Assembly (NCBI RefSeq): GCF_003160695.1 | Contig: NZ_QGDD01000002.1 | Location: 434,001-498,000, forward strand | DNA: 64,000 nucleotides | Direction of reading: 5' to 3' | Source: Nocardioides silvaticus | GTDB taxonomy: Bacteria; Actinomycetota; Actinomycetes; Propionibacteriales; Nocardioidaceae | Shown: piece after piece, positions 15,271-19,234 of the stretch | Layout of the letters: each line of letters opens with the position of its first letter | How positions within the stretch are numbered: the first letter of the stretch is position 1 | Position numbers and translations under genes: made by a program | Notes under the pieces: generated by a model | Database searches by the model: none | Told to the model about the DNA's origin: nothing | What the model saw: only the letters and a program-made list of their open reading frames with translations

Positions 15271-15630
15271 TTGGCAGGTGGTGGCAACGCGATCCGCGGT
15301 AGTCGTGTCGGGGCCGGCCCCATGGGCGAGGCCGAGCGTGGCGAGGCAGCGCCCCGCCAGGCGGTGACCTATTACTGCGCACACGGGCACCGCTCCGTGA
15401 TCGCCTTCTCGGTCGAGGCCGTCGTGCCCGACTCCTGGGACTGCCCGAAGTGCGGCCTCCCCGCAGGCCTCGACTCCGAGAACGCCCCTCCGGCGCCGAA
15501 GATCGAGCCCTACAAGACCCACCTCGCCTACGTGAAGGAGCGCCGCTCCGACAAGGAGGCCGAGGTCATCCTCGACGAGGCCGTCCAGCTCCTCCGCTCC
15601 CGCCGCAAGTCCGGCGAGATCATCTTCTGA
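15271..15630 (+). CDS. rbpA: RNA polymerase-binding protein RbpA
   Basis: RbpA is an actinobacterial RNA polymerase subunit that binds the beta' subunit and the principal sigma factor and helps open promoters. The 119-residue product has the N-terminal AIRGSRVGAGPMGEAERGEAAPR, the zinc-stabilised core (YYCAHGH...WDCPKCGLPAG) and the sigma-interacting C-terminal region (PYKTHLAYVKERRSDKEAEVILDEAV). The start is TTG 15271 behind a strong GAGGAGAG site. The stop codon directly abuts the first unit of a repeat array, an unusual position. Confidence 0.95.
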   Translation: MAGGGNAIRGSRVGAGPMGEAERGEAAPRQAVTYYCAHGHRSVIAFSVEAVVPDSWDCPKCGLPAGLDSENAPPAPKIEPYKTHLAYVKERRSDKEAEVILDEAVQLLRSRRKSGEIIF

Positions 15631-15716
15631 CGCCGACCCGGCTCAAACTCGCACCACTGGGGCGCCGACCCGGCGCAAACTCGCGCGAGCAAGGTGCCGA
15701 CCCGGCGCAAACTCAC
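15631..15716 (+). repeat. Left repeat array: three units with 32-bp period
   Basis: Three near-identical 22-base motifs start at 15631, 15663 and 15695, exactly 32 bases apart, with unrelated 10-base spacers between them. Each holds a GC palindrome (in unit 2, GCGCCG-ACC-CGGCGC at 15662-15676) followed by CAAACTCRC. The first unit begins directly after the rbpA stop codon, and the third overlaps the last codons of the convergent nuclease gene. The same motif occurs inverted at 16757-16874. Confidence 0.9.
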
Positions 15717-16681
15717 GCGCCGGTACGACGGATCCTGCGTCCTGCCTCGGCGATCTCGCGCCGCAGCACCCGGTCCGCGTTCTGGTGCGGGCCGAACAGG
15801 TTCTCCTTGGTGAACGGCGTGATGTGCCAGCCTTCCTGCTCCGTCACCAGTGCGCGGCGGAGGCGGTCGTGCTCCAGCTGACCAGGGCTGGAGTGCCACT
15901 CGGCACCGTCGTACTCAGCGGCATAGCGGAGCTGCTCGTTCGCCAGGTCCAGCCGGGCGAGGAACTCCCCGGCTGACCAGACCTCGAACTGCGGGATGGG
16001 CGCGGGCAGGTACGTCTCGATCCACCGCAGGCGCAGCACCGATTCCGGTGGTGACTCGGCGCGGCCGTCCGTGTGCGGAGCGACGACCCGGAGGACCGTC
16101 ACCCAGCGCATCCCGCGGAATCGCTCGATGCCGGCGATCAGCTCCTCCTTGGAGAACACGCCCAGGCGAAGCATCTGGTCCATTCCAGCGATCGAGCGAT
16201 CGGTCCAGCGAGTCCGCCCCAGGTCCCAGGTCGTCCTGATCGGTGTGGTGACGAGCAGACCGTCGACCTCGGTGATGTCGGAGGGCTCGAGTTTGCGTTC
16301 GCCGCCGACCGTCAGCTCGTTGCGCAACCGGCGGCCCGGTGGCAGGAAGACGCAGATCGGCATCACGTTCACGTGCTCGTTCGGCGCGAGGGCCATCTCG
16401 GCGCCGTGAAGCCATCCGGCGTGACGGTCGCAGACAACGGCATCCTCCGGCACCACCAGGCGCAGGCACTGGACACGCAGGCTCGTCGAATCGCCGAGCT
16501 GGGCTGCGACGTACACGCCCTTGACCGGGTGGCGCAGGAAGCCTTCGTCGACCAGCCACTTGAGGTCGCGGTACGAGAGCCCGGCCTCGTAGCGCGCCTC
16601 TGCGGTGGTGAACGGTCGGTCGAGGGGCAGGGGGAAGGCGGGCCCGAGGAACGGCTGCCCGAGCAGCGGGGTGAAGTCCAT
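15713..16681 (-). CDS. AbiEi-like winged-helix plus DUF559-type PD-(D/E)XK nuclease domain protein
   Basis: The 322-residue product has an N-terminal winged-helix-like region resembling the AbiEi antitoxin domain (PFTTAEARYEAGLSYRDLKW, residues about 23-42, then GVYVAA). Its C-terminal domain is of the Vsr-like DUF559 class: PPESVLRLRW with E213, ARLDLANEQ with D245 and AAEYDGAEWH with E256, in the order expected of PD-(D/E)XK active sites. Such genes are common in actinobacteria as stand-alone, uncharacterised proteins; no AbiEii-like toxin is adjacent. The start is ATG 16681 with a weak ribosome binding site. Inverted arrays of a 32-bp unit flank it on both sides. A role in defence, repair or mobility is possible. 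Confidence 0.72.
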   Translation of the reverse strand: MDFTPLLGQPFLGPAFPLPLDRPFTTAEARYEAGLSYRDLKWLVDEGFLRHPVKGVYVAAQLGDSTSLRVQCLRLVVPEDAVVCDRHAGWLHGAEMALAPNEHVNVMPICVFLPPGRRLRNELTVGGERKLEPSDITEVDGLLVTTPIRTTWDLGRTRWTDRSIAGMDQMLRLGVFSKEELIAGIERFRGMRWVTVLRVVAPHTDGRAESPPESVLRLRWIETYLPAPIPQFEVWSAGEFLARLDLANEQLRYAAEYDGAEWHSSPGQLEHDRLRRALVTEQEGWHITPFTKENLFGPHQNADRVLRREIAEAGRRIRRTGA

Positions 16682-16756
16682 GCCGCAAGGGTCCGGCCTC
16701 TCGGCGTCCTAGAACACCGCACTTCGTCGAGCCTGTGGAAAACTGCCGGGCGGACT

Positions 16757-16874
16757 GCGAGTTTGCGACGGGTCGGCGCCCTATGAGTGCGAGTTTGCGA
16801 CGGGTCGGCGCCCTACGGGCGCGAGTTTGCGACGGGTCGGCGGTTGATGAGTGCGAGTTTGCGACGGGTCGTCA
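16757..16874 (-). repeat. Right repeat array: four units with 32-bp period, inverted relative to the left array
   Basis: Units of 22 bases start at 16757, 16789, 16821 and 16853, each exactly 32 bases after the last, separated by 10-base spacers (CCCTATGAGT, CCCTACGGGC, GTTGATGAGT). The plus-strand motif is GCGAGTTTGCGACGGGTCGG followed by CG; the first three units are identical. The fourth diverges at its last bases, where TCA is also the stop codon of pgl on the minus strand. Read on the minus strand it is the same motif as the left array, with the palindrome changed from CCGACCCGG to CGACCCGTCG. Confidence 0.92.
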
Positions 16875-17606
16875 GAGGCGGGAGGCGGCGTCGTGGTCGA
16901 GGAACCACGTCGTCTCGGTGAGGCCGCGGACGCCGCGGGCGGGGGTCTCGGCGACCGAGCCGTCGTCGGCGAGGGCGCGGGCGACCGCTTCGGCCTTGCC
17001 CTCGCCGGAGGCGAGGAACCAGACGGTGTGGGCGCGGTCGAGGGCCTCGAAGGTGAGGGTGACGCGCTCGGGCGGGGGCTTGGGGGAGTCGTGGACGGCG
17101 GCGGCGAGGGCATCGGTGACGTCGAGGCCGGGGTGGCCGGGGAAGAGCGAGGCGACGTGGCCGTCGGGGCCGATGCCGAGCATGAGGACGTCGAAGGCGC
17201 CGCCGCCCTCGGCCCGCACCTCCTCGGAGTACGACGCAGCGGCGGCCTCGGCGTCGGCCACCTGGTCGGCGGCGGGGACCTCGTGCACGCGGGTGGCCCC
17301 GACCTCGTCGAGGAACGCCGCACGGGCCTGGCCGGCGTTGCGGTCGGGGGAGTCGGAGGGGACGAAGCGCTCGTCGCCGAACCAGAAGTGCACGGCACCC
17401 CAGTCGACGCCGGAGGCGGGCGCCATCCGAGCCACCTCCTTGTGGACGACCTCGGCGATGGTGCCGCCGGTGAGACCGATGTGCGGTACGTGGCCGGCGG
17501 CCTGGGCGTCGGCGATCCGGTTCAGCAGCTCGCCCGCGACGGCGGTCGCCAGCGCGTCGGCGTCGGGCTTCACCTCGACGAGCGGGGCGGGTCGTTCGTC
17601 GGTCAC
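16872..17606 (-). CDS. pgl: 6-phosphogluconolactonase
   Basis: Pgl (DevB) hydrolyses 6-phosphogluconolactone in the oxidative pentose phosphate pathway. The 244-residue protein has the family marks GLTGGTI near residue 45, [34 protein letters not shown] and [15 protein letters not shown] 17606 overlaps the pgi stop (GTGA), so the pair is translationally coupled. Its stop codon forms the edge of the right 32-bp repeat array. The enzyme that makes its substrate (Zwf/OpcA) is not encoded in the cluster, unlike in many relatives. Confidence 0.93.
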
Positions 17607-19234
17607 CGGCGGTGCCTCCGGTAGTAGTCGATGAGGGCGCGGGTGGACGCGTCCTGCTGCTCCAGCGCCGCGTCGTCGCCCGCGACCGCGGGAGTGACCT
17701 GCTGTGCGAGCTGTTTGCCGAGCTCGACGCCCCACTGGTCGAAGCTGTCGATCCCCCAGACGACGCCCTGGGTGAACGTGATGTGCTCGTAGAGCGCGAT
17801 CAGCTGACCGAGCACGGACGGCGAGAGCTCCGGCGCCATGATCGAGGTGGTCGGGCGGTTGCCGGTGAAGACCCGCGCCGGCACGATCGCCTCCTTCGTG
17901 CCCTCGGCGCGCACCTCGTCGGCGGTCTTGCCGAACGCGAGCGCCTTGGTCTGCGCGAAGAAGTTCGCGAGGAACAGCTCGTGCACGTCGACCTCGCCGT
18001 CCTTCAGCGGGTGCGCGGGGTTGGCGACCGCGATGAAGTCCGCCGGGATCAGCCGGGTGCCCTGGTGGATCAGCTGGTAGAACGCGTGCTGCCCGTTGGT
18101 GCCGGGCTCGCCCCAGAACACCTCACCGGTGTCGGTGGTGACGGGGGAGCCGTCCCACCGCACGCCCTTGCCGTTGCTCTCCATCGTCAGCTGCTGGAGG
18201 TACGCCGCGAACCGGTGCAGCGACTGCGCATAGGGAAGTACGGCGTGGGTCTGCGCGCCGAGGAAGTTGACGTACCAGACGTTGAGCAGACCCATCAGCG
18301 CCGGCACGTTGCTCTCCAGCGGGGTCGTGCGGAAGTGCTCGTCGACGGCGTGGAAGCCCGCGAGGAACTCGGCGAACCGCTCGGGACCGATCGCGAGCAC
18401 CAGCGACAGGCCGATCGCCGAGTCGACCGAGTAGCGGCCGCCGACCCAGTCCCAGAAGCCGAACGCGTTGGCCGGGTCGATGCCGAACGCCTCGACCTTG
18501 TCGAGCGCGGTGGACACGGCGACGAAGTGCTTCGCCACCGCGCCCTCGGCCGAGCCCAGGCCGTCGAGCAACCACGACCGGCACAGTCGGGCGTTGGTGA
18601 GGGTCTCGAGGGTGCCGAACGTCTTGCTCGACACGATGAACAGCGTCGTCGCCGGGTCGAGCCCCGCAAGCGTCTCGGCCGCGTCGGTCGGGTCGATGTT
18701 GCTGATGAAGCGGCACTCGATGTCATCGTGCCGGTAGGGCTTGAGCGCCTCGTAGGCCATCACCGGACCGAGGTCGGAACCGCCGATGCCGATGTTGACG
18801 ACCGTGCGGATCCGCTCGCCGGTGACGCCGGTCCACGCCCCCGACCGCACCTGTTCGGCGAACGCGTAGACCCGCGCGAGCACGGCGTGCACATCGGCGA
18901 CGACGTCCTGGCCGTCGACCTCGAGCCGGGCGTCCGCAGGCTTGCGCAGTGCGGTGTGCAGCACCGCGCGGTCCTCGGTGACGTTGATGTGCTCGCCGGC
19001 GAACATCGCGTCGCGCCGCTGCTCGAGGTCGACCTCACGGGCGAGGTTGAGCAGCGTCGCGACGACGTCGTCGTCGACGAGGTTCTTCGAGAGGTCGACG
19101 TGGAGGTCGGCCGCGGCGAACGTGAACCGGTCGACCCGACCGGGGTCGTCCGCGAACACCTGGCGCAGGTCGGGCGTGCCCCTGGCGGCCAGCTCGGTCA
19201 AGCGCGCCCACGCCGGCGTCGTCGTCGGGTCCAC
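17603..19234 (-). CDS. pgi: Glucose-6-phosphate isomerase
   Basis: The enzyme interconverts glucose 6-phosphate and fructose 6-phosphate. The 543-residue protein has [18 protein letters not shown], the substrate loop [27 protein letters not shown], the signature [18 protein letters not shown], the catalytic region GKGV and [19 protein letters not shown], and a Lys-bearing [14 protein letters not shown]. The frame stays open to 19279, but similarity and spacing favour GTG 19234, two bases after the tal stop. It lies between tal and pgl in a tkt-tal-pgi-pgl operon and links glycolysis with the pentose phosphate genes. Confidence 0.95.

Follow-up and report, generated by a model that had tools for sequence, protein, structure and literature searches.

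A family of two-part nucleases flanked by phased inverted arrays suggests a REP-like repeat system in Nocardioides

Between the convergent genes rbpA and pgl of Nocardioides silvaticus, a gene for a two-part nuclease is framed by two inward-facing arrays of a short repeat. The locus lies in a 64,000-nucleotide stretch of contig NZ_QGDD01000002.1, referred to here as the window, from a genome of 4.5 Mb in 26 contigs. Arrays of this kind accompany most relatives of the nuclease; the repeat unit differs between family members, its period follows the protein phylogeny, and gene-less inward arrays are dispersed in the same genome, most often between convergent genes near stop codons, at sites that vary by species. 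We consider it likely, with some reserve, that these features reflect a REP-like, nuclease-associated repeat system, the protein of which binds its repeat and probably also cuts and spreads it. Among the readings offered by a first-pass annotation, made from the letters of the window, a REP-like element is the one that fits best.

A nuclease gene between inverted arrays

A 22-nt unit occurs seven times in the gap between rbpA and pgl; its three forward and four reverse copies face inward and are spaced by exactly 32 bp within each arm (Table 1). Motif, copy number, orientation and period had all been recorded in the first-pass annotation, as had the fit of the arrays between the two stop codons and the presence of one gene with AbiEi-like and Vsr-like nuclease parts; each was reproduced, the last by gene calls and by the predicted structure. 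This gene is the single credible one between rbpA and pgl, where no second gene (AbiEii toxin, partner or TnsB-type transposase) was found. The right arm lies upstream of it, and a consensus scan of the window locus returned neither a sigma-70-type promoter nor a terminator-like site. Within the nuclease gene, 15 nt at 16283-16297 agree in 14 of 15 bases with 16817-16831 of the right arm (spacer end and unit start), a likeness that may be due to chance.

Table 1. Coordinates of the nuclease gene, its repeat units and the neighbouring genes in the window.
Feature	Coordinates	Strand	Remark
rbpA, convergent neighbour (site, outside the element)	15271..15630	+	TGA stop at 15628-15630
Repeat unit, left arm copy 1	15631..15652	+	begins on the base after the rbpA stop
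Repeat unit, left arm copy 2	15663..15684	+	
Repeat unit, left arm copy 3	15695..15716	+	overlaps the nuclease stop codon (15713-15715)
Nuclease gene, 322 aa	15713..16681	-	AbiEi-type part (~residues 1-204) and Vsr/EDxHD-type nuclease domain (~205-319)
Repeat unit, right arm, copy closest to the nuclease start	16757..16778	-	
Repeat unit, right arm copy	16789..16810	-	
Repeat unit, right arm copy	16821..16842	-	
Repeat unit, right arm copy	16853..16874	-	outer end is the pgl stop codon
pgl, convergent neighbour (site, outside the element)	16872..17735	-	stop (TCA on +) at 16872-16874, inside the last unit

Over 113 copies (core with at most two mismatches) from 26 clusters of the same genome, this repeat, unit A, has the consensus GCCGACCCG(T/G)CGCAAACTCRC, in which a GTAG-type tag is absent. 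Folded as single-stranded DNA, the 22-nt unit reached -5.2 kcal/mol in its G variant, with 11 of 200 shuffles as good, and -0.7 kcal/mol in its T variant, with 181 of 200 shuffles as good. The right arm of the window locus consists of T-variant units throughout; folding of whole arms gave a z of -1.48 for the left (16 of 200 shuffles as good) and +0.22 for the right (111 of 200). The 'GC hairpin' of the first-pass annotation therefore describes the G variant but not the T variant that fills the right arm, and a hairpin as the sole basis of the repeat was rejected because T-variant units and the right arm fold like shuffles. A search of eight loci against Rfam gave no match up to E 1.

The spacers had been called unrelated, which did not hold within an arm: across the own-genome clusters, tail and spacer together (15 nt) were 0.758 identical there, compared with 0.464 when the arms of one locus were set against each other and 0.517 when different loci were. 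Since this similarity is highest within an arm, arms seem to lengthen by tandem duplication inside the arm. A CRISPR-like array, that is, unrelated spacers between direct repeats, was discarded on the same comparison of in-arm and between-locus identity.

An AbiEi-type part joined to a Vsr-like nuclease

Against Pfam, the window protein matched MTES_1575 (E 3e-4; 21.3 bits, below the cut-off of 38.2) and AbiEi_4 (E 0.03, likewise below cut-off); across 36 family members at E 0.01, MTES_1575 was matched by 25, AbiEi_4 by 21 and DUF559 by 10. The PADLOC AbiEi model matched the window protein with E 3.3e-12. In the predicted structure (mean pLDDT 91.8), residues 1-204 resemble the AbiEi structure 6y8q (Foldseek E 8.6e-4; Z 10.2, rmsd 9.7), and the nuclease part finds its best fold in the homing endonuclease I-Bth0305I (3r3p; Z 12.2 over 96 residues, rmsd 2.3), to which its sequence match is weak (E 0.43); Vsr (1cw0) scored Z 11.0. 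TnsA is among the structure matches with Z 7.2, below the level that the tool counts as meaningful alone, and no HUH tyrosine transposase family was listed for the protein by Pfam, PADLOC or structure comparison. The homing-type reading of the first-pass annotation survives in so far as the fold is nearest to a homing endonuclease and Vsr, but not as classical homing, there being no intron or intein.

Of the residues that had been singled out earlier, E213 and E256 are shared by all 36 relatives compared and D245 by nearly all; G259, H263 and D272 are likewise invariant. Eight close pairs gave dN/dS values of 0.05-0.16, indicating that the nuclease is under purifying selection. By analogy with AbiEi proteins, which bind inverted repeats, the nuclease protein is likely to bind DNA repeats; fold and conservation make DNA cutting by the nuclease domain plausible. 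That such cutting drives the spread of the arrays is the least certain step, and one that we infer.

Relatives of the nuclease are present in 52 of 58 genomes of the genus and order. Distant relatives were found in 1 of 50,697 phage records and 4 of 72,556 plasmid records, and a phage or plasmid gene was rejected on account of this near absence.

Arrays flank the nuclease family

In a first survey of 65 relatives, 49 had an array on at least one flank, compared with 2 of 130 control flanks, and an inverted match between the two flanks was present at 57 of 65 loci as opposed to 4 of 65 controls; the control flanks were taken from the distal ends of these loci, and L026, whose contig stops next to the gene, was excluded. 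A second set from named genomes, overlapping the first, gave 33 of 38 for the array flank and 33 of 38 for the inverted match. With duplicates removed, 84 of 104 distinct nucleases carry an array on at least one flank, so the occurrence of arrays near other genes of the family, raised by the first-pass annotation, proved to hold for most of those surveyed. The 20 nucleases without an array by this score comprise 11 from other genera of the order and 9 from Nocardioides, including L003, a third relative in the N. silvaticus genome.

The period is narrowly distributed. It is 21, 22, 31 or 32 bp in 133 of 143 array flanks, 42 or 44 bp in 4 and another value in 6, and at 59 two-sided loci both arms share exactly the same period in 53, differ by a factor of two in 3 and differ otherwise in 3. 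Periods of 21/22 and 31/32 bp correspond to two and three helical turns, as a protein bound repeatedly on one face of the DNA would require. Mapped onto the protein tree, the two-turn or three-turn state changes 6 times, the lowest count in 100 shuffles being 21, whereas 18 changes are needed for the exact period. Equal periods become more frequent as proteins grow more alike, from a fraction of 0 among pairs at 20-30% identity to 1.0 among those above 80%. Unit similarity also grows with protein identity (Mantel rho 0.224, reached by 0 of 1000 permutations), a modest correlation, and linked genes and arrays would co-diverge anyway.

Dispersed gene-less arrays near gene ends

Allowing one mismatch, the 17-nt core of unit A occurs at 101 places in its own genome (48 forward, 53 reverse), a dispersal that is not due to chance, as the reversed control gave 0. 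The places listed, at most 100 of the 101, were grouped by hand into at least 26 clusters, mostly gene-less inward arrays. Among the matches listed, forward copies come first in 20 of 20 clusters with both orientations, and the 26 clusters divide into 17 between convergent genes, 8 between tandem genes and 1 between divergent genes, gene orientation being estimated from codon usage, which performs poorly at L038 and L058. In 9 of the 17 convergent clusters, again among the matches listed, no more than 10 bp separate the core from the stop codons of both flanking genes.

Repeat populations are largely private to a genome. Exact copies of unit A number 54 in the own genome and 1 in G014, with 0 in the other 57 of 59 genus genomes. 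The second nuclease of the N. silvaticus genome (locus L002), 39% identical to the window protein, is flanked by a different 22-bp unit, unit B, which at up to two mismatches occurs at 41 places in this genome, at one each in G009, G018 and G027, and at 0 in 55 others; the reversed unit B gave one chance match each in G001 and G003. The first-pass annotation had also envisaged a motif scattered through the genome with no link to the gene family: unit A is indeed scattered, but units A and B are almost restricted to the genome that carries their nucleases, which speaks against a missing link.

A third unit, unit C, was seen at the rbpA-pgl junctions of G007, G012, G030 and G066 and is present in 7 of 59 genomes (48 places in G012, 28 in G007, 25 in G067, 21 in G030, 13 in G066, 9 in G017 and 2 in G022). 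In five of these seven genomes the junction nuclease belongs to the unit-C clade, whereas those of G017 and G022 come from another clade; G067 has its 25 places although its own junction array bears a variant unit. G019 and G004, with 0 places, have junction nucleases in or next to the unit-C clade and arrays of their own with other units.

Two further observations were made by eye. The third own relative (L003, 27% identical) is flanked by inverted sequence with GGGTTGTCAGCC, and at about 2140-2330 of L035 a sequence close to this flank is nested in a gene-less array, as if one family had entered another.

Occupied and empty sites across the genus

Both rbpA and pgl were found in 59 of 59 genus genomes; they share a contig in 56 and are convergent in all 56. 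Of these 56 junctions, 24 contain a nuclease gene, in either orientation and each time with an array on at least one side. Nuclease-free junctions shorter than 150 bp number 15; several appear clearly empty, among them those of G058 (14 bp) and G006 (76 bp, including an ordinary hairpin). Empty sites, the search for which the first-pass annotation had suggested, thus exist here, as they do beside era (below). At one junction, L165 (G013), the nuclease was matched in two pieces about 1.5 kb apart, as if interrupted.

On the protein tree, 41 junction proteins are accounted for by 8 label changes, at least 6 of them forced by starred branches, compared with a mean of 32.6 in shuffles, which shows that the junction was entered or left several times. 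Among the loci from named genomes, a protein was labelled as junction where rbpA and pgl both lay within its locus, except for L243 (pgl alone, labelled junction) and L264 (rbpA alone, labelled non-junction). The non-junction proteins L218, L236, L237 and L257 nest among junction proteins; L218 comes from G072, where the junction is occupied instead by a gene-less array built from another unit.

Eight junctions that have repeats but lack a nuclease were selected by eye. In three (G072, G059 and G008) the repeats scored highest against the arrays around a nuclease at another place in that genome, with best versus next scores of 35.0 versus 10.5, 36.0 versus 17.0 and 23.5 versus 14.5 among 14 loci compared, and no matching nuclease was found among the loci compared for G036, G010, G062, G021 and G070. 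For G072, G059, G008 and G036 these were the best 14 of 25 loci, the eleven weakest being omitted; for G010, G062, G021 and G070 they were 23 loci together with nine of those 25. By eye, the G036 junction repeat resembles that of G018, where the junction has a nuclease. The junctions L162 (G010) and L192 (G062) contain tandem repeats with CTACTCGACC beside a long palindrome, and L173 (G021) contains a longer tandem repeat (with GAGCGGTGAGCCACCCACGTT) that does not resemble the arrays around the nuclease of G021.

The second site is beside era, where the N. silvaticus genome carries a gene-less nine-unit array of 264 bp between era and its convergent neighbour. The gene era is present in 59 of 59 genomes, and its locus was read in 30. 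The convergent neighbour is present in 22 of the 29 other genomes (31-73% identical), with a gap below 50 bp in 11 of the 22 (3 bp in G072) and a different repeat in the gap of G033; exact unit A occurs in those 29 genomes as one copy only, in G014, on another contig than its era. From the sequences compared, the array beside era is most simply read as a gain.

Related arrangement in mycobacteria

Beyond the genus, nine mycobacterial relatives (29-33% identical) are accompanied by an inverted pair of a 31-nt dyad at similar distances, on both sides of the gene in eight and on one side in L273. With up to 3 mismatches the dyad occurs at 9-32 places per genome in the nine mycobacterial genomes, the reversed controls giving 0; the search tolerated 8 substitutions in flanks and 3 in genomes. 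The mycobacterial form is the same arrangement with one dyad replacing the tandem array. The dispersed dyad (L272-L281 except L277) may be the motif reported as the mycobacterial terminator family TRIT; a literature search on a terminator family of mycobacteria yielded nothing of use.

Proposed mechanism and alternative explanations

In the REP-like system that we favor, the AbiEi-type part would bind phased units cooperatively on one face of double-stranded DNA, would repress its own promoter from the right arm upstream of the gene, and would position the nuclease domain to nick or cut at or near units. Repair of the break from another array would copy arrays to new places and keep the units of one genome alike, and tandem duplication inside an arm would lengthen them. 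Insertions would survive mainly between convergent genes, where the arrays may double as terminators. We recognized neither a target-site duplication nor a fixed insertion sequence in the loci read.

Several of these observations would also suit a regulatory network, in which an AbiEi-like regulator uses the arrays as operator clusters for its own gene and for 3' ends and the nuclease moves no DNA. AbiEi proteins bind inverted repeats in promoters and autoregulate, according to the accessible text of PMC7319586, and the matches to the PADLOC AbiEi model and to 6y8q, the helical phasing of the arrays, the right arm upstream of the gene and the estimated 17 of 26 own clusters between convergent genes (among the matches listed) all agree with such a role. 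We nevertheless regard it as unlikely, since the invariant nuclease residues and the low dN/dS point to an active enzyme, although other reasons might also preserve the domain, and since array sites differ between species, which regulation alone does not yield.

Termination bears on a further alternative, that of passive spread, whereby the arrays are bidirectional terminators copied by slippage and recombination and the nuclease gene is a mere passenger. Some short arrays have an apex where forward and reverse units meet; three of them, selected for a T tract visible by eye, were scanned, and each holds one terminator-like apex hairpin. The apparent growth of arms by tandem duplication and the close approach of cores to both stop codons in 9 of 17 convergent clusters among the matches listed point in the same direction. 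However, were the gene a passenger, one would expect neither the association of arrays with the gene family in 84 of 104 nucleases nor units A and B to be almost restricted to the genome that encodes their nucleases, and the window locus has no terminator-like site in the consensus scan, so we consider passive spread quite improbable.

A dedicated defence role, raised by the first-pass annotation and backed by the match of the AbiEi-type part to defence-library models, with the nuclease attacking foreign DNA and the chromosomal arrays acting as self marks or as a sink, is very improbable given the lack of a toxin or partner gene at the locus, the position of the gene between two housekeeping genes in 24 of 56 genomes, and dispersed arrays without obvious role.

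The REP-like reading looks like a genome-spreading repeat system with its own enzyme that is undescribed: no report of a nuclease-array system was found in the literature searched, outside which subscription papers mostly fell, and nothing was found there on DUF559 or MTES_1575 with repeats. Some bacterial families of dispersed palindromes are without a known enzyme, for example the CGTC REPs, as far as the available text of PMC3733652 goes. In the present case the repeats go with an unrelated nuclease family: they lie beside its genes, are almost restricted to the same genomes and show a common helical period. Should the protein act on its repeat, a candidate enzyme would be at hand for orphan repeat families, perhaps mycobacterial ones among them, 84 protein-repeat pairs would be available for reading a recognition code, and the spread of short repeats to gene ends would become testable with one purified protein and one repeat.

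Comparison with known systems

The ends of Tn7 each carry several binding sites of about 22 bp, and the transposon inserts after a stop codon. The present arrays are similar in having several sites of about 22 bp per end after a stop codon, and TnsA is in the structure list (Z 7.2); they differ in that the element has no second gene or TnsB, gene-less arrays dominate and arm length is variable.

The AbiE toxin-antitoxin system shares the AbiEi-like part (residues 1-204), and AbiEi binds inverted repeats (PMC7319586, in the text available); here, by contrast, no AbiEii nucleotidyltransferase toxin is adjacent, a nuclease domain is present, and the repeats are two-sided and dispersed. I-Bth0305I, an EDxHD homing endonuclease of Vsr fold, offers the closest nuclease fold and the same joining of a DNA-binding part to a nuclease part, an architecture described for EDxHD homing endonucleases in the accessible portion of PMC3943268; unlike in homing endonucleases of this kind, however, the gene is free-standing outside any intron or intein and is flanked by arrays the unit of which recurs without the gene.

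CGTC-tagged REPs are likewise dispersed extragenic palindromes, for which the available text of PMC3733652 reports no dedicated transposase; they bear another tag, are predominantly alpha-proteobacterial and rarely form clusters according to the same text, in the accessible part of which the string 'actinobacteri' is absent.

In REP/RAYT systems, the gene lies between inverted repeats, cognate repeats are dispersed outside genes, repeat and protein co-vary, and repeat abundance is tied to the gene (PMC2817692, accessible part). The nuclease family parallels this with a gene flanked by inverted repeats, dispersed cognate repeats tied to gene presence, and co-variation of repeat and protein; exceptions to the tie are G017, G022, G019 and G004 for unit C and the five junctions with repeats that matched no nuclease compared. 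The differences concern both partners: the enzyme combines AbiEi-type and Vsr/EDxHD-type parts in place of the HUH tyrosine transposase of RAYT, and the repeats are tandem, with a two- or three-turn period, on both sides of the gene, lack a GTAG tag and include a T variant that is a weak hairpin. Because the T-variant unit folds so poorly, the single-strand mechanism of RAYT is not simply transferable. We hold that the system functions like REP/RAYT yet is not a member of it. Tentatively, and with slightly more doubt than confidence, we suggest that it may be a second independent invention of the REP strategy, categorically unlike REP/RAYT, in which a double-strand-DNA nuclease with an AbiEi reader would copy phased arrays to gene ends by break and repair, in Nocardioides and in mycobacteria with one dyad, giving several private repeat populations per genome, each with its own enzyme.
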